Shown one piece after another: positions 14,666 through 25,424 of a stretch of DNA of 60,879 nucleotides (its first letter is position 1; each line of letters opens with the position of its first letter). The notes under the pieces are model-generated. The model was not told the DNA's origin. It made no database searches and saw only the letters and a program-made list of their open reading frames with translations. The DNA comes from Bdellovibrionales bacterium. GTDB lineage: Bacteria > Bdellovibrionota > Bdellovibrionia > Bdellovibrionales > UBA1609. A program made the position numbers and the translations under genes. The stretch is from positions 1 through 60,879 of the forward strand of contig JAHDIR010000015.1 in the NCBI GenBank assembly GCA_020630675.1, written 5' to 3'.

Positions 14666-15499
14666 CTATAAATCAAGTTTTTTAAGTTCATTCAAAAATG
14701 TCGAAAGGCAATTTTCAAATTCAACCTTTTCAGAAACAACAGAAGATACCTTACTCCATGACTTTTCAACTAAGCCATAGCTATAAGATTTCATAGTTTC
14801 ATAAATACTTTCAGGCAAATTGGTCTCACGGTGTTGAAAGCATTTCATTAATGATTTTTTAAGTTTATTTTTATTTGCCTGTGGAAGATATAAAGATAAA
14901 TCATAAAGATCTTTTGCCCTTGAACTACCACCCTCTCTAGAAATAAAGGCGTGAATTTTTTCAGATATTATCGTTTCTACAGGATAAACCTTCCAGCTTA
15001 ATTCACCTTCGCCCAGAAGAGTTGAAGTTTTTTCTAAAACTGGGGCGGGGTATATCAAATCATCAAACCCAATATCAAGGTGAACTTTAACAGATCTTGA
15101 GATATCTTTAGGCTGCTTGCCAAGCCCCGTACGGTAAATTTGCTTCAGCCCCCCCTTATATGACTGCAGCAATAGGTTCTCTTCTTTTTCAAAAACAAAC
15201 CAAACTCCATCATCGCTTTCTGACTGAATAATTTTTTTGAGTTGATTTATATGCTCTTTATTTTTAGAGCCATTTAAAACAGCATCTAAATCAATCGTAT
15301 ATCTTTTAGAGTTGTAAACTCTAAGACCGACAAACCCACCTTTGAAAACAAGTTGATCACGTAAAGATGTTGCAAGAATTCTATAAGCCATTCTTTCTAT
15401 AAAAAAATTCATTGCAACATAGTTGTAAGCAATATTGCTCTCTCTAGATATCTCTGATAACTTTTTCGATATTGATTGAGCTATTTCGTTAGGGCTCAT
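14666..15499 (-). CDS. abiEii: AbiEii toxin, nucleotidyltransferase of a type IV toxin-antitoxin system
   Basis: A 277-residue DUF1814/AbiEii protein. Family motifs are visible: FKGGFVGLR followed by TIDLDAVL (the nucleotidyltransferase acidic pair), ISEKIHAFISR, and RAKDLYDLSLYL near the centre. AbiEii enzymes use nucleotides to block growth, giving abortive infection or plasmid stabilisation; the exact target here is unknown. I start it at the ATG at 15499, which overlaps the abiEi stop as ATGA with GGGAG upstream. An in-frame ATG at 15517 is the alternative and would add six residues. It is co-transcribed with the antitoxin and forms part of the islet bounded by direct repeats. Confidence 0.9.
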   Translation of the reverse strand: MSPNEIAQSISKKLSEISRESNIAYNYVAMNFFIERMAYRILATSLRDQLVFKGGFVGLRVYNSKRYTIDLDAVLNGSKNKEHINQLKKIIQSESDDGVWFVFEKEENLLLQSYKGGLKQIYRTGLGKQPKDISRSVKVHLDIGFDDLIYPAPVLEKTSTLLGEGELSWKVYPVETIISEKIHAFISREGGSSRAKDLYDLSLYLPQANKNKLKKSLMKCFQHRETNLPESIYETMKSYSYGLVEKSWSKVSSVVSEKVEFENCLSTFLNELKKLDL

Positions 15500-16083
15500 G
15501 CTATCAAAAGCTCCCATTTTTTCTCTAAATAAGAAAGCATTTTCAGCTTTTTTCCCATCTTGTAAAGTTGTCCCTCTGTAGTTAGCTGTTCTTTTAATGC
15601 TTCAGTAATTGCTTTAAATACTATTGCTTCACCTATTTTATTCTGAAATTTTAACCCCTCAACCAAAGCCCTCTCAATGTTTACAATTTTAAAACCATCT
15701 TTATTTACTACTCCTGAGGTTAATGAAGATTTGGTTTTTATTGTTTTATACTTCTTATCTGTAGAAACTCTTCTGTCTGGAGGGGTGAGAACCCAAACTT
15801 TAGGCGAAACTTGATCAACAAGGTTATAAAACTCTAATGCTGAAAGACCACCAATAACCGAGTCCTTGCCAAATTTTTTACAAGCAATAATGTAATCTAA
15901 AAATTTAAAATTTATTTTGGCATTTTTATGAAGATACAGACCACGAGATACTCTTTCAATCATATGGGTAGACTTAATAAGCCTAAATAGAGTTGGCTGT
16001 GATATTGATAATGTACTCAGGGCCTCATTAGTAGAGAAAACTCCCAATACCTCGAGTTTTTTTAATTGGTTATCTTTATTCAT
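15496..16083 (-). CDS. abiEi: AbiEi antitoxin and transcriptional autorepressor
   Basis: A 195-residue AbiEi-family protein. Residues about 8-55 form the winged-helix domain (STNEALSTLSISQPTLFRL, then RGLYLHK). The rest is the AbiEi C-terminal region with SVIGGLSALEFYNL and a conserved VLTPPDRR segment. In the studied systems AbiEi represses its own promoter by binding inverted repeats, and counters the toxin without stable protein contact (type IV). A perfect 18-bp inverted repeat sits 11 bp before the start codon here, fitting that model. The toxin gene is translationally coupled downstream. Confidence 0.9.
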   Translation of the reverse strand: MNKDNQLKKLEVLGVFSTNEALSTLSISQPTLFRLIKSTHMIERVSRGLYLHKNAKINFKFLDYIIACKKFGKDSVIGGLSALEFYNLVDQVSPKVWVLTPPDRRVSTDKKYKTIKTKSSLTSGVVNKDGFKIVNIERALVEGLKFQNKIGEAIVFKAITEALKEQLTTEGQLYKMGKKLKMLSYLEKKWELLIA

Positions 16084-18092: not shown

Positions 18093-19052
18093 GTGAAAAA
18101 ATTTGTTGAACAAGAAAAGTTAAACCGAACTTTAGAGCTCTTGCAACCTTATGCTGACATTGAAACCTTGGCTAAGGTTGATCATGATGGAAGTTCTTTT
18201 CCTATTTATGGACTTTCTATGGGAAGCAAAGACAAAAAAGCTCCAGTTTTAGGGCTATTTGCTGGAGTTCACGGTTTAGAAAAAATAGGGTCTCATGTGC
18301 TTATTCAGCACTTAAATTATTTGGCTCATTTATTAAAGTGGAATCAAGCAGCTAGAGAGCTAATGAAAAAGACACGCCTTGTTTGCATACCCATTGTAAA
18401 CCCTGCCGGTATGTTTCATAATCGACGAAGTACGATGACGGGAATTGATATTATCAGAAATGGCCCAGATTGTATGAAGGTCGGCCCTAAAAACTTAGTT
18501 TCTGGTCACCGTATTAGCCCAAAGCTTCCTTGGTATATGGGCCAACCAGGAGAAATGGCCTTAGAAACTAAAACTTTGATTAATTTTGTAAAAAAAGAAA
18601 TTTATCCTTCTGACTTTGCTTTTACTCTCGACTTACATTCTGGGTTTGGTTTAAGAGACCGACTTTGGTTCCCTTACTCTAAAAATAAAAGCCCATTTCC
18701 TTTTTATAAGATAGCCCAACACTTTAAAACATCTATAAAAAAAGGAATGCCCTATCATATCTACAAGGTTGAACCTCAGTCAGAGAGTTATTTAATAAAT
18801 GGTGACCCTTGGGACCATCTATTTGATGAGTACTATAAGTTACACTTTGGAAAAAAAATTTTTATCCCTTGGACCTTAGAAATGGGCTCTTGGTTATGGG
18901 TTAGAAAAAATCCAAAACAAATATTCTCTTTTAAAGGTATGTTTAATCCAGTTGTTTCACATAGATATAAAAGAGTTTTAAGACGACATCGCTTTTTGTT
19001 AAACTATTTGCATCAAGTGGTCTGTCATTGGCAAGAGTGGAGTAAGGTTTGA
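18093..19052 (+). CDS. M14-family zinc carboxypeptidase-like protein
   Basis: A 319-residue cytoplasmic-looking protein (no signal peptide) with zinc ligands His60 and Glu63 in GVHGLE and His182 in DLHSGFG. A later LEMGSW segment is placed where M14 enzymes carry the catalytic Glu. This layout fits M14 carboxypeptidases and the related deacylases (succinylglutamate desuccinylase/aspartoacylase group), so the bond cleaved could be a C-terminal peptide bond or an N-acyl group. The start is GTG with a weak ribosome site. The next gene starts within its stop codon, so the two are probably co-expressed. Confidence 0.75.
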   Translation: MKKFVEQEKLNRTLELLQPYADIETLAKVDHDGSSFPIYGLSMGSKDKKAPVLGLFAGVHGLEKIGSHVLIQHLNYLAHLLKWNQAARELMKKTRLVCIPIVNPAGMFHNRRSTMTGIDIIRNGPDCMKVGPKNLVSGHRISPKLPWYMGQPGEMALETKTLINFVKKEIYPSDFAFTLDLHSGFGLRDRLWFPYSKNKSPFPFYKIAQHFKTSIKKGMPYHIYKVEPQSESYLINGDPWDHLFDEYYKLHFGKKIFIPWTLEMGSWLWVRKNPKQIFSFKGMFNPVVSHRYKRVLRRHRFLLNYLHQVVCHWQEWSKV

Positions 19053-19789
19053 ACTGGTTATTATTAAGAGGGTTGGCAAGAACGAAAGAACACTGGGGAG
19101 TGTTTCCTTTACAACTAGCTCAGGCTTCTGGAAAAAAGGTAGAATGCTTAGATTTACCTGGGTTTGGATCAGAATCAAATCAAAGCTCTCCAACATCTAT
19201 TCCTGCAATTGTAGATAATTTAAGATCTCGTTTTAAAAAAAATGAAAAACAAAATCAGGGACAGTGGGGAATTTTAGGCCACTCCTTAGGAGGGATGGTG
19301 GCTATTGACTGGGCATCTCGCTACCCCCAAGACTTTGAAACCGTTGTGACTTTAAATACAAGCTTTAAGAACTTATCTTCTTTTTGGCAACGCTTAAAAC
19401 CGAACTCATTATTTACTCTTTTAAAAATTTTAAAATCATCGCAGCCAATAGAAAAAGAAAAAGGAATCATCAGTTTAGTTTCAAACTTACGTAGTGATGA
19501 CCCTGAGGTTATTAAAGAGTGGTCTGCAATTTTAGAAAATAAAGAAACAAATTCCAAAAATTTTTTACGACAATTGTATGCAGCCTCTCGTTTTTCGGCG
19601 CCCTCAATTTTGAAAACCCCTCTTGTTGTTTTAGCTTCTCGGCAAGACAAAATGGTTAGTCATAAGTGCTCAGTTAAACTGGCAGAATGCTATCAAGCTC
19701 AACTTAGGCTTCACCCCAAAGCAGGCCATGACATGGCCCTTGATGCCACAGATTGGTTAGTCAATGAGTTAGTGTCGCTGAGCAAGTGA
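19049..19789 (+). CDS. Alpha/beta hydrolase
   Basis: A 246-residue alpha/beta-hydrolase with the nucleophile Ser in GHSLGGM, the acid in ASRQDKMV and His in KAGHDMALD, resembling BioH or carboxylesterase-type enzymes. It starts with TTG, overlapping the stop of the peptidase gene, with AGTAAGG just upstream, and so is translationally coupled. The natural substrate is unknown. BioH would be one option, but no other biotin gene is nearby. Its last 79 bases overlap, in antisense, the 3' end of the arginase gene. Confidence 0.8.
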   Translation: MNWLLLRGLARTKEHWGVFPLQLAQASGKKVECLDLPGFGSESNQSSPTSIPAIVDNLRSRFKKNEKQNQGQWGILGHSLGGMVAIDWASRYPQDFETVVTLNTSFKNLSSFWQRLKPNSLFTLLKILKSSQPIEKEKGIISLVSNLRSDDPEVIKEWSAILENKETNSKNFLRQLYAASRFSAPSILKTPLVVLASRQDKMVSHKCSVKLAECYQAQLRLHPKAGHDMALDATDWLVNELVSLSK

Positions 19790-20649
19790 GAAACAATCTC
19801 TGTAATGACATAAATACTACTTTTAATTTCCTCAGCACTGGTGGCCATTAAAGGATTTAGCTCAACAAACTCGGCGCTGACTAACTGATTTGTGTGTTTT
19901 AGCAAATGACCAAGGCTGCGAATATGCTCGATATTTAATCCATTAGGAACATGTAAGCCTGTGGCTTTGGCAAATTGAGGGTCCATACTATCAATATCAA
20001 AACTAAGATGAAGAGGGGAGTCTCCAGACGGGTCAATAGCTTGCAAAACTTGATGAATAGTTTTTTTCATTCCTTGTTGTTGAACCTCATAGGCTGACAC
20101 AGTTTGAATACCCAATTGTTGAATAATTTTTTGCTCACCTGGGTCAATGTCTCTAACTCCAATAATAGCTAATTTTTTTGGATTTAACTTAGTTTTAAAC
20201 CAATTCATGTCACCAATATAATCAGGGCTAACCAGTCCCATAAGATGAGATAAGGGCATGCCGTGAAGGTTTCCAGAAGGAGATGTTTGCGGAGTGTTCA
20301 TGTCGGCATGAGCATCCACCCAAATTACAGATAAGTTTGGGTATACATCTAGCAAGGCAGAAACCGTGGCGATAGAAACACTATGGTCTCCACCCATCAT
20401 GAGGTTAAAGTCATTCGTTTGCACCATATTTAAAGTTTGCTGATACAGGTTTTCATACATTTGCCCTTTGGAGAGGTTTTTCACCTGCAAGAGGTCACCC
20501 ATATCATTTACTAAATATTTAAATTGTTCTAATAAGAAGGGAAATCCGTGTTTTCTAAGCAAGGCTGGTCCTAACTCAACTCCGAATTTTTTTTGACCAA
20601 AACCGTAGCTTGCGCCAATTAAGCCAAGAGTAGGAGTTAAACCGGGCAT
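19711..20649 (-). CDS. rocF: Arginase
   Basis: A 312-residue ureohydrolase giving ornithine and urea from arginine. The binuclear manganese site is complete: GGDHS, DAHAD and SFDIDSMDP. The segment GNLHGMPLSHLMG and the N-terminal GQKKFGVELGP fit arginase better than agmatinase. Its start overlaps the end of the O-acyltransferase gene by 13 bp, in an operon with an OlsB-like N-acyltransferase. That suggests its ornithine feeds lipid synthesis, although general arginine use cannot be excluded. Its 3' end overlaps the convergent hydrolase gene by 79 bp. Confidence 0.92.
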   Translation of the reverse strand: MPGLTPTLGLIGASYGFGQKKFGVELGPALLRKHGFPFLLEQFKYLVNDMGDLLQVKNLSKGQMYENLYQQTLNMVQTNDFNLMMGGDHSVSIATVSALLDVYPNLSVIWVDAHADMNTPQTSPSGNLHGMPLSHLMGLVSPDYIGDMNWFKTKLNPKKLAIIGVRDIDPGEQKIIQQLGIQTVSAYEVQQQGMKKTIHQVLQAIDPSGDSPLHLSFDIDSMDPQFAKATGLHVPNGLNIEHIRSLGHLLKHTNQLVSAEFVELNPLMATSAEEIKSSIYVITEIVSHLLSDTNSLTNQSVASRAMSWPALG

Positions 20650-21419
20650 GGTATATACCTTTCTGTAATCAGTTGGTGTGATTTTTCAGCATAGTATTTT
20701 GTTTTTTTGTCCTTTTCTGTTGTCAAAACTTCGAGGTAATCGACCTCAACATTGATATTTTTTTGACCAAGTAAGTTCCATAAGTGAGAAAAAAATGGCA
20801 TTTTATCATACCAAAAAATAAGGTCGCGGTTTTGTGAGGAGATATACTCATTGTTTATTGATCTGTAATTCAGACATATAGGTTGAATCTTTTTTTCGGC
20901 AAAAATTGCAGCCGAATATAAAGGCTGTTTAAACCTTAAAACCTCATCACCATTTGTGCTTGTGGCTTCAGGAAAAATAGTGACGTTGACATTATTTTCT
21001 AGACCATCTGTAATTTCATTAATTTCTAAGGCTAAATTTTTACGAGTTCTTCTGTCGACAAAGAGGCAGCCTGCAAATTCACACAAAGTACCTAGAAAAA
21101 AAGTTTGCCTGATTTCTTCTGAGGTTACAAAACAGGTGGGTGTGATAGCAGCAACAACAAGAATATCTAGGTAAGATAAATGATTAGAAACAATCAACTT
21201 ATTGTCTTTTGTAAAATCATAGTTTTTACCTTTTACTTTTAAAGAGACTCCCATCACTTTTAAACCCCAGCGACAAAACAGTGATAAAGTTTTTGACCGA
21301 GCTTGAGTGCGAGCCCATTTTTTTCGATAAAAAAGAGCTAAAAGTGAAGAAACAAATGCATAGCTGAAGATTAAAGATAATATGGCGATAAATTTGAGTG
21401 TTTGCACAAAAATATTCAT
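20637..21419 (-). CDS. PlsC-family acyltransferase, probable OlsA-type O-acyltransferase
   Basis: A 260-residue membrane-associated acyltransferase with an N-terminal hydrophobic helix, the catalytic HX4D motif in NHLSYLD, and FPEATSTNG for phosphate or substrate contact. PlsC proteins acylate lysophosphatidate, while OlsA relatives transfer a second fatty acid to lyso-ornithine lipid. The neighbours decide in favour of OlsA: it overlaps the OlsB-like gene by 4 bp upstream and arginase by 13 bp downstream. A housekeeping PlsC role is the main alternative and cannot be excluded from sequence. Confidence 0.8.
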   Translation of the reverse strand: MNIFVQTLKFIAILSLIFSYAFVSSLLALFYRKKWARTQARSKTLSLFCRWGLKVMGVSLKVKGKNYDFTKDNKLIVSNHLSYLDILVVAAITPTCFVTSEEIRQTFFLGTLCEFAGCLFVDRRTRKNLALEINEITDGLENNVNVTIFPEATSTNGDEVLRFKQPLYSAAIFAEKKIQPICLNYRSINNEYISSQNRDLIFWYDKMPFFSHLWNLLGQKNINVEVDYLEVLTTEKDKKTKYYAEKSHQLITERYIPCPV

Positions 21420-22258
21420 ATCTGGAAGTACCTGTTGTAATATTTTGAACCAATTTCGTTCACGTGAATAATAGTAAAAAAATCATGGCAGCGAAAATCT
21501 CTGTCGTAAGCAGGAATTCCATAAATTTTAGCGCCCATTTTTAAATAAGATTTCATTAATATAGGAATCAGATCTTTTGGAGGAATAAACTCATACAGGG
21601 GTTTCATTTTGGATCGAGTATGATGCTGGTAGCGAAATCTAGGCTTAATATTAAATTTATTGGAGTAGTGATTTGACTTTAAGTGTTCTAAGACAGACAA
21701 GGCTTGAGCTTCATTAGTTATTTTAAGGCTAGTGCAACCAAAAAGGCTGTCCACTCCCGTGAGCCTTGCGTAACGTCCAATACCTCTCCAAACAAGATCA
21801 ATAGCCATACTTTTTCTAAACTCTTTTTTTATACAAGCACGACCAAGCTCTAGTTTTAAACCAGGGCTAGCAAAAAAATGATCCAGGTGAAACTCTTTGG
21901 CTGAGTAAAAATCATCGCAAAAACCACTAGATAGAACTCTATAAGTTCCAACAATTTGATGACTTTTTTTATCAATGAGTAAGATATGGTCGGCAATAAT
22001 ATCAAGTTTGGAAAAGTCTAAGTTATTATTTCTTTTCTCTCCCAGCCCTTCTTCAATAAAGATTTCATGTCTTAAGCGAAGAACCGCTTTCAACTCATCA
22101 ATAGTGGTAGCTGTTTTGATAACAAATTGGTTAGTTTCTAGTTCGAATTTAATTTTTGGTTTGAATTTTGAAATTTTAGAATTTTGATAACGAGCCCTAA
22201 TTTTCCAACGATCGTAGTTATGGGGGTGTTGTTCTGGCTTATATATCAATGTTTGCAT
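21416..22258 (-). CDS. olsB: OlsB-like N-acyltransferase (ornithine lipid synthesis)
   Basis: A 280-residue GNAT-fold protein of the Acetyltransf_5 type (LRHEIFIEE near residue 60, VGTYRVL, LELGRACI, and FGCTSLK). Members include OlsB, which puts a 3-hydroxyacyl chain on the amino group of ornithine, and GlsB, which uses glycine. The presence of arginase in the operon points to ornithine. It is the first gene of the operon, with AGGAGG six bases before the ATG at 22258; an adjacent in-frame TTG is less well spaced. The three genes overlap and must be co-transcribed. Confidence 0.75.
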   Translation of the reverse strand: MQTLIYKPEQHPHNYDRWKIRARYQNSKISKFKPKIKFELETNQFVIKTATTIDELKAVLRLRHEIFIEEGLGEKRNNNLDFSKLDIIADHILLIDKKSHQIVGTYRVLSSGFCDDFYSAKEFHLDHFFASPGLKLELGRACIKKEFRKSMAIDLVWRGIGRYARLTGVDSLFGCTSLKITNEAQALSVLEHLKSNHYSNKFNIKPRFRYQHHTRSKMKPLYEFIPPKDLIPILMKSYLKMGAKIYGIPAYDRDFRCHDFFTIIHVNEIGSKYYNRYFQI

Positions 22259-22424: not shown

Positions 22425-23999
22425 TTAAGCACGTGATGATCGACGACCGGCTCCACCCCTAAGAGATGACTTTTTCTTACCACCGCCAGTTGTTTTTTTC
22501 CCGTCAGAACGATTTCGTGAAGATCCGCCACCGCCACCAGCTCCTCGTCGTCCACCAGCACTGGCAGAACCACCCCCTCGACGGGAGCGAGCACCACTAG
22601 CTCGTCCTCTCGCACGAGAGCGTCCCCGGCCAGGGCTGCCGCCACTAGCGGTATCTTCAATATCTTCAACACCATTTTGCTTTAAGCTTTTAGCATCGAA
22701 TTTCCAAGTAAACATAAGTTTAATCAATTGGTCATGAGCAAGGTCTTTAAGCTTATCTTCAAATAAAGAAAAACTCTCATCGGTTTTAAAGTCATCGCCT
22801 TGTACTTTTAAAGCTTCAATAATTCTTTCAGCTTTTGACAATTCATCTTCAATCTTTTTTCTTTTAAGTAAGGCAAGAGAGGGAAGTTTGCCCAATTCAA
22901 TAGATTTATTTATATGTCGTTCAATTTTACGAATGGCAAAGGCAGCACTTGGCCCAACAATGGTAAAAGCCTTACCTGTTTGGCCGGCACGACCGGTTCG
23001 ACCAATACGGTGCACATAACTCTCGTTATCTTGCGGTAAACCGTAGTTAATCACATGGGTTAAATTGTTAACATCAATTCCACGAGCGGCAACATCTGTA
23101 CAAACCATAATGGTGGCTTTTTTATCTTTAAATCTTTTCATGGCTCGTTCGCGTTCGACCTGTCCCATGTCACCATTTAAAACTTCAACATTATAACCTT
23201 GTTTTTTTAAATGATCGCCCACCTCTTTGGTTTCTACTCTAGTGCGGCAAAAAACAATTCCATACATATCAGCGTTGGCATCCATGATTCGTCCCAAAGA
23301 CTCTTTGAAATACCTGGGTTTTACAATAAAATACTTTTGTTCAATGTTATCATTACTGACCGACTTTTTTTCGACCTTAACCATTTCGTATTCATTAAAT
23401 GATTTTTTAATTAGTTTGATAATCGCCTGAGGCATAGTTGCTGAAAACATGATGAGTTGGCGTTCTTTTTTAAAGCTACTTAGAATTTTTTGAACGTCTT
23501 CAAAAAAGCCCATATTGAGCATTTCATCGGCTTCATCTAAAACACAAAAAGAAGCATTATCAAGAACAAGAGCCCTGCGTTTAATCATGTCCATAACACG
23601 GCCAGGTGTTCCCACAACAATTTGCGGAAAGTCCTTTTTTAAAGAGCGCAATTGTTTTTCGTAACCAGTACCGCCGTAAATACAAGTGGATCGGGCCTCA
23701 GTATGTTTGCCTAATTTGTGAATTTCATTTTCTACTTGCATCGCTAACTCACGAGTGGGTGCAAGAATAAGAGCTTGAACAGCTTTACTTTCGTAATCAA
23801 TTTTTTCTAATATCGGAATAACAAAGGCCGCAGTTTTTCCAGTTCCTGTTTGGGCTTGGCCAATAAAATCTTTGTTGGTTTTACCAAGAATAGGTATGGC
23901 TTTTTCTTGAATTTCAGTAGGTTGAGTAAAACCCATTTCAGTGACGGCTTTAAGTACGTCAGGGTCGATATTTAATTCTTCAAATGTAACATTGCTCAC
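22425..23999 (-). CDS. DEAD-box RNA helicase with a Gly/Arg/Ser-rich tail
   Basis: A 524-residue ATP-dependent RNA helicase. Q motif at FTQPTEIQ, motif I AQTGTGKT, II DEAD, III SAT, VI HRIGRTGRAG. After the two RecA domains a helical linker leads to a roughly 75-residue tail built of Gly, Arg, Ser and Ala, resembling the disordered RNA-binding tails of CsdA/RhlE proteins. The GTG at 23999 is chosen because GGAG lies five bases upstream; an upstream in-frame start at 24038 would add 13 unusual residues. The tail-coding stretch (22440-22640) is noticeably GC-richer than its surroundings. Likely roles are ribosome assembly or RNA decay. Confidence 0.93.
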   Translation of the reverse strand: MSNVTFEELNIDPDVLKAVTEMGFTQPTEIQEKAIPILGKTNKDFIGQAQTGTGKTAAFVIPILEKIDYESKAVQALILAPTRELAMQVENEIHKLGKHTEARSTCIYGGTGYEKQLRSLKKDFPQIVVGTPGRVMDMIKRRALVLDNASFCVLDEADEMLNMGFFEDVQKILSSFKKERQLIMFSATMPQAIIKLIKKSFNEYEMVKVEKKSVSNDNIEQKYFIVKPRYFKESLGRIMDANADMYGIVFCRTRVETKEVGDHLKKQGYNVEVLNGDMGQVERERAMKRFKDKKATIMVCTDVAARGIDVNNLTHVINYGLPQDNESYVHRIGRTGRAGQTGKAFTIVGPSAAFAIRKIERHINKSIELGKLPSLALLKRKKIEDELSKAERIIEALKVQGDDFKTDESFSLFEDKLKDLAHDQLIKLMFTWKFDAKSLKQNGVEDIEDTASGGSPGRGRSRARGRASGARSRRGGGSASAGGRRGAGGGGGSSRNRSDGKKTTGGGKKKSSLRGGAGRRSSRA

Positions 24000-24198: not shown

Positions 24199-24390
24199 TT
24201 AGTGATTTTGAGCCCGGGCTTGAAAGTTTTCGATGGCTCCATTTGAAGACGTGTAAAAAATAACAATGGGTTGGCAGCAGACTTCGCAATCTTCGATATA
24301 CTCTTGGCTCTCCTCAAAGGTTTCTATCAACATAGAAATGCTTTCCCAGCAGTAAGGGCATTGAAAAAATTGCTCTACAACTTGGTTCAC
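24199..24390 (-). CDS. CPXCG-motif cysteine-rich small protein
   Basis: A 63-residue protein with CPYCWE near residue 11 and a second CEVCCQP cluster, matching the CPXCG family, presumed zinc ribbons of unknown function. The four or five Cys can bind one metal ion. The start overlaps the stop of the preceding YecM-DUF4269 gene as ATGA, so the two are translated together. There is no membrane segment. Confidence 0.85.
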   Translation of the reverse strand: MNQVVEQFFQCPYCWESISMLIETFEESQEYIEDCEVCCQPIVIFYTSSNGAIENFQARAQNH

Positions 24391-25424
24391 GGCTCTAACC
24401 TTTTTTGTATGAAGCTATTTAATTTGGCCTCAGGCCACGAGTGTAGTTTTAGTAGTTCTGTGTAAGGGTTTCCTGTTAAGTCTAAGGCTTGGGCAAAGGC
24501 AGGTTCAGTTTTTAAGTTTTCTTGCCTGAGTTTTTGGATTTTATTTCTCAAAACTTTTCCTCCTAATTTTAAACAACGCTCTTCTATTTGAAAGTGAAGG
24601 TATGCTCTTTGTTGATGAGATGGGGTTTTTTGAGCAAATAGCTCAAAACGAATTTCATTAAATAAAAAGGAAATTAAAACATGATTTTTTTTATCATCCA
24701 AATTTTGTAAAATTTTGAACTGATGGAATTGAGAGTAATGTGTTTCAGCCGTTTTAATAACTTCTTTAAAGTCTTTAGCATAAAGAAGAATATCAACATC
24801 TGACTTATTATTTTGCAAGTTTAAGGGGTAGGTGCCAACCACCAGAGGTTGAAATTGAGAAAATAAAGATAAGACTTTAGATTGTTCAATAGCTTGATAA
24901 ACAGGAAGGTTAGATTCTAAGTGAGAGACCGATTCTAGAGACATATGGTGAAATTTAATAGTATAGTCAGTTAATTGAAGAGAAAGCTCTTTGTTAAAGT
25001 CTTTATTAAGGCCGCGCTCAGAAAATTGACAATGGCTGTAGTCATTTTTAATGTCATCAAAGCTAAAATTACCAACGACTTCTATATGTTCAAACCCTGT
25101 GGGCTTAGGCCGCCCATCTTTTGGAGCAGGAAGCTCGACAACATCAATTTGATGGTCTTGAAAGTAAAGAGGCTTATTAAGTTTAAAAGTAGAAATAGGT
25201 CGTCCATTTATGGGAGTTTCATGAAGTAAAATGGCAAACTGTTGAATTTTTTTTTTAAGTTGAGTGTAAAGTTGGTAGGAATCACAGCGATAGCACACGT
25301 GATCGACCTGATAATGAGAAGGCCAAGAGACTTTGGCACTTTTTAGCTGATTCTGAAGTTTAACTGCAAAATCATCAAAAGCTTGTTGAAATTCAAAACT
25401 ATCCATTTGAATTGAGGTCTCCAT
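24387..25424 (-). CDS. Fusion of a YecM-like VOC domain with a DUF4269-like nucleotidyltransferase domain
   Basis: A 345-residue two-part protein. Residues about 10-170 match YecM, a VOC-fold protein of unknown role with a metal-site-like pattern (VDHVCYRC, INGRPISTFKL, GFEHIEVV). Residues about 180-345 match DUF4269, a nucleotidyltransferase-like domain, with GTYPLNL followed by SDVDILL, the pattern of a catalytic Asp pair. In many bacteria these occur as separate proteins. The role is unknown. It heads a two-gene operon with the CPXCG protein, with 4 bp of overlap. Confidence 0.8.
   Translation of the reverse strand: METSIQMDSFEFQQAFDDFAVKLQNQLKSAKVSWPSHYQVDHVCYRCDSYQLYTQLKKKIQQFAILLHETPINGRPISTFKLNKPLYFQDHQIDVVELPAPKDGRPKPTGFEHIEVVGNFSFDDIKNDYSHCQFSERGLNKDFNKELSLQLTDYTIKFHHMSLESVSHLESNLPVYQAIEQSKVLSLFSQFQPLVVGTYPLNLQNNKSDVDILLYAKDFKEVIKTAETHYSQFHQFKILQNLDDKKNHVLISFLFNEIRFELFAQKTPSHQQRAYLHFQIEERCLKLGGKVLRNKIQKLRQENLKTEPAFAQALDLTGNPYTELLKLHSWPEAKLNSFIQKRLEP

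Follow-up and report, generated by a model that had tools for sequence, protein, structure and literature searches.

The 60,879-nucleotide stretch of a Bdellovibrionales contig analyzed here (the window) carries an arginase gene in one overlapping row with two acyltransferase genes, which raises the question as to whether a cell may supply the head group of an ornithine lipid from the same gene unit that acylates it. The classic route to ornithine lipid is encoded by the olsBA gene pair (reviewed in PMC11631085), and the first-pass annotation of the window had proposed that the three genes form a self-supplied version of this pathway. To explore this proposal, we examined the identity of the three proteins, their linkage in related genomes, and the metabolism of ornithine in the window's genome.

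An overlapping row of two acyltransferases and an arginase

On the minus strand, the genes run 5' to 3' in the order OlsB-like, PlsC-type, arginase (Table 1), overlapping by 4 bp and then by 13 bp. The frames and overlaps that had been read from the sequence at first pass were borne out, and all three family assignments hold by profile. The upstream neighbor of the OlsB-like gene is a DEAD-box helicase gene that ends at position 22425. At its 3' end, the arginase gene shares 79 bp with a convergent alpha/beta-hydrolase gene. Chance juxtaposition of the three genes is rejected because relatives with about 36 to 50% protein identity have the genes similarly closely spaced. No Pho box of the E. 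coli-type pattern was found upstream of olsB, and matches to this pattern across the window were no more frequent than expected by chance; scans for intrinsic terminators and sigma-70 promoters likewise gave no more matches than in shuffled sequence.

Table 1. Positions of the three-gene unit and its conserved neighbors within the window.
Feature	Position	Strand	Remarks
OlsB-like ornithine N-acyltransferase (putative)	21416..22258	-	280 aa, PF13444
PlsC-type, OlsA-like lyso-ornithine-lipid O-acyltransferase (putative)	20637..21419	-	260 aa, PF01553
Arginase (predicted)	19711..20649	-	312 aa, PF00491
Alpha/beta-hydrolase, conserved neighbor	19049..19789	+	Ser79-Asp200-His227
M14 zinc-carboxypeptidase-like protein, conserved neighbor	18093..19052	+	PF00246 1e-15, no evident signal peptide

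The first protein of the unit carries a GNAT-type N-acyltransferase domain (Pfam Acetyltransf_5, 1.9e-21), and its top NCBIfam matches are two OlsB models (117.1 and 114 bits, ~1e-33), each under its equivalog cutoff (320 and 350 bits, respectively). A sequence search found no relative of known structure for this protein. The PlsC-type protein, whose gene adjoins olsB, matches the Pfam Acyltransferase family (5.9e-18), and its top NCBIfam model is OlsA, at 113.7 bits against an equivalog cutoff of 300. By these profile matches, the two proteins are best filed as OlsB-like and OlsA-like. Because their scores fall well below the equivalog cutoffs, the sequences do not settle which head group is used, and the substrates given for both acyltransferases are predictions. 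Elsewhere in the window's genome, a second PF13444-type domain (27 bits) lies within a 463-aa frame (G000:C79:541-807; L002).

The third protein matches the Pfam Arginase family (6.3e-59) and scores above the NCBIfam equivalog cutoff of TIGR01229 (236.6 versus 227.6 bits), while agmatinase models reach 83 to 92 bits, well under the arginase model. In human arginase 1, residues H101, D124, H126, D128, D232, and D234 form the metal site as Mn ligands, and N130, S137, H141, D183, E186, and E277 bind arginine, with contacts to its alpha-amino and alpha-carboxyl groups among them. All 12 are identical in the aligned window protein. Its assignment as an arginase, predicted to hydrolyze L-arginine rather than agmatine, is therefore supported.

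Two other arrangements within the window were observed on the minus strand. At positions 14666-16083, an AbiEii-type nucleotidyltransferase toxin gene overlaps a gene for a 195-aa protein with no Pfam match, which is possibly an AbiEi-like partner. At 24387-25424, a YecM domain and a DUF4269 domain are joined in one 345-aa protein.

Linkage of arginase and olsB across Bdellovibrionia

The first-pass annotation had pointed to gene-neighborhood conservation across Bdellovibrionota as a check on its proposal. We compared the positions of arginase and OlsB in 59 relatives and then in 144 Bdellovibrionia genomes; when contigs were searched for OlsB, an alignment query gave matches and a single-protein query gave none. 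Related arginases were identified in 36 of the 144 genomes and OlsB in 108, and arginase adjoins olsB in 23 genomes from 15 genera, in four arrangements. The OlsB-PlsC-arginase order of the window is found in seven genomes, all of the window's family. The arginase-OlsB order is found in 14 genomes of a second family (f8), with an M14 gene directly downstream on the same strand in five of them. The remaining arrangements occur once each: an OlsB-arginase order with an OlsA-like gene elsewhere (G044), and a divergent order of arginase and OlsB-PlsC (G121). In genomes G015 and G102, a contig end probably separates the two genes. A PlsC-type gene follows olsB in most relatives. Three genomes have arginase without olsB, and several olsB-positive genomes keep their arginase unlinked.

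On the arginase tree, in which many of the deeper forks lack resolution, nine changes of arrangement are needed. Three sequences of a divergent arginase-like clade (G014, G091, and G094; L049, L168, and L170) sit on a long branch and are unlinked to ols. As different lineages keep different gene orders, the linkage is better explained by function than by an accident of inheritance. A set of 80 named OlsB loci extends to Cloacimonadota and other phyla, and arginase neighbors of the window's kind occur in this set only in Bdellovibrionia records.

Some f8 genomes (G053, G065, G088, and G090; L040, L041, L153, L156, and L157) have at least two olsB copies, only one of which is paired with arginase. 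This suggests that the copies are separately supplied or regulated paralogues.

The two plus-strand neighbors of the window unit also recur. M14 genes are present in 20 of the 80 named OlsB loci, usually together with the hydrolase, and all of these are Bdellovibrionota-type or unresolved Proteobacteria records; M14 genes near OlsB are found in genomes without arginase as well. M14 and hydrolase genes accompany ols at window positions 18093-19789 (+) and at L159, L160, L162, L163, L164, and L167, and in some relatives an arginase-olsB-M14-hydrolase row lies on a single strand. The predicted model of the M14 protein (pLDDT 84.8) is similar to carboxypeptidases A, B, and T, and the sequence retains the HxxE...H zinc motif and an invariant Glu263. 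An Asp at carboxypeptidase position 255, which would indicate specificity for basic residues, was unsupported by the profile alignment. The hydrolase model (pLDDT 93.9) is that of a generic alpha/beta-hydrolase with a conserved Ser79, Asp200, and His227. The planctomycete OlsH/OlsI system (PMC12493201) similarly encodes an alpha/beta-hydrolase near its partner gene, but the GH3-like enzyme of that system is not seen at the window locus, and the weak match of the window hydrolase to the OlsI model (25.8 bits; cutoff, 385) is unspecific, being no better than its matches to several other hydrolase families.

The M14 protein and the hydrolase are likely partners of ornithine-lipid metabolism; whether they act in lipid turnover or in freeing arginine from peptides is a matter of speculation. 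One could imagine a larger Bdellovibrionota module for ornithine-lipid supply and turnover or remodeling, in which arginase, OlsB, and OlsA would be joined by a hydrolase that removes or exchanges the ester-linked chain and an M14 amidohydrolase that acts on the amide beside the free carboxyl group of N-acyl-ornithine, returning ornithine for reuse. We regard this extended scheme as unlikely.

Sources and uses of ornithine

If the arginase supplies a lipid head group, other ornithine genes should bear on its role. In the window's genome, which is 99.9% complete, no ornithine carbamoyltransferase (OTC) or ornithine aminotransferase (RocD) scored over cutoff, and neither ArgJ nor an OKR-type ornithine decarboxylase was found. 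A TIGR01885 match was rejected as an ornithine aminotransferase, since the protein is BioA, encoded next to a BioD-like frame. PF02784 matches were rejected as ornithine decarboxylases, since they are only SpeA (760.8 bits) and LysA (396 bits). With SpeA and an agmatinase both present over their cutoffs, and with SpeA and LysA as the only decarboxylase candidates, putrescine is predicted to be made by the SpeA-agmatinase route, and ornithine would not be needed for polyamines. In this search, which covered OTC, ArgJ, RocD, OKR-type and PF02784-type decarboxylases, and agmatinase, OlsB is the only candidate consumer of ornithine identified. Judged by its gene content, the cell seems to lack a de novo route to ornithine. 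Arginine taken from prey is thus a plausible source, in keeping with the lack of OTC and ArgJ.

Across the class, OTC is present in 28 of the 144 genomes and co-occurs with arginase in 2, versus 7 expected (Fisher p 0.015). The exclusion holds within olsB-positive genomes (p 0.010) and at the genus level (p 0.039), although these tests correct only partly for relatedness and the exclusion is partly phylogenetic. Without the divergent arginase clade, a removal decided after seeing the tree, the overlap falls to one genome (p 0.005). Arginase and OTC thus largely exclude each other, and the ornithine makers of the class are mostly without arginase, which supports arginase as supplier of the head group. 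Many olsB-positive relatives have neither a window-type arginase nor OTC, and these must either draw ornithine from another source or use a different head group.

A proposed pathway and its alternatives

Could the acyltransferases instead build another aminolipid, on glycine, lysine, glutamine, or the like, with the arginase serving independent arginine catabolism and standing in the operon by chance? OlsB homologues outside the characterized groups do make glycine and glutamine lipids (PMC11631085), and the sub-cutoff OlsB and OlsA scores would allow for it. The Bacteroides glycine-lipid enzymes GlsB and GlsA likewise pair an N-acyltransferase of the same GNAT superfamily with an O-acyltransferase, but the window OlsB has no significant match to the GlsB model. 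Of 21 aligned OlsB-like proteins, all match the OlsB models and three touch GlsB, at best with 9e-8, and a GlsB-type head group is disfavored accordingly. The recurrence of arginase adjacency in several arrangements also speaks against an independent arginase, as does the failure to find a RocD, OTC, or ornithine decarboxylase that would carry its ornithine onward, and we consider this reading improbable.

The doubt might instead fall on the middle gene. Pfam PF01553 spans both lysophosphatidate and lyso-ornithine-lipid acyltransferases, and the general AGP acyltransferase model TIGR00530 reaches 86 bits with the PlsC-type protein (cutoff, 103), so that the operon might make only N-acyl-ornithine or serve phospholipid synthesis. 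However, the OlsA model outscores every PlsC model for the window protein and for the seven relatives tested, a second PlsC-like frame lies elsewhere in the window's genome, and the tie of a PlsC-type gene to olsB is kept in most relatives; a phospholipid role seems slightly less probable still. Supply of polyamines or nitrogen metabolism is the usual role of bacterial arginases, and cotranscription with olsBA could be incidental or regulatory. This we judge very improbable, since putrescine can be reached without ornithine and neither ornithine decarboxylase nor ornithine aminotransferase was found.

The self-supplied ornithine-lipid operon of the first-pass annotation, with arginase as the head-group supplier to OlsB and OlsA, is instead supported by the profiles, by adjacency in 23 genomes and in four gene orders, and by the detection of no other ornithine source or consumer, and we hold it to be highly probable. 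Arginase would convert L-arginine to L-ornithine and urea, the OlsB-like enzyme would transfer a 3-hydroxyacyl chain onto the alpha-amino group of ornithine to give lyso-ornithine lipid (N-acyl-ornithine), and the OlsA-like enzyme would add a second acyl chain through an ester bond to give ornithine lipid. The gene overlaps may allow translational coupling, which would tie the supply of the head group to the two acyltransferases. With no apparent ornithine synthesis of its own, the cell would derive the head group from arginine acquired from outside.

Like the olsBA pairs of Sinorhizobium, Rhodobacter, and Brucella, the window unit has two adjacent acyltransferase genes of the same families, N-acyl then O-acyl, but it differs in its third member, the arginase, and in scores far under the NCBIfam equivalog cutoffs. 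In Ruegeria pomeroyi, arginase SPO2119, which falls in an olsA mutant, is described as responsible for ornithine production and is likewise proposed as the ornithine supplier (PMC9938194), yet its locus tag is distant from that of olsB (SPO1980) and no operon was reported. A literature search, with most subscription papers outside its reach, found no report of an arginase-ols operon, in line with the first-pass annotation, and no paper on the ornithine lipids that Bdellovibrio may make. The idea that an arginase provides ornithine for this lipid thus already exists for R. pomeroyi, and what appears to be new is an arginase within a putative ols operon, a finding that the genomic comparisons support well. 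Head-group supply and aminolipid synthesis would here be coupled within one gene unit, which suggests a way for bacteria of the Bdellovibrio lineage without ornithine synthesis to turn arginine from outside into a phosphate-free lipid.
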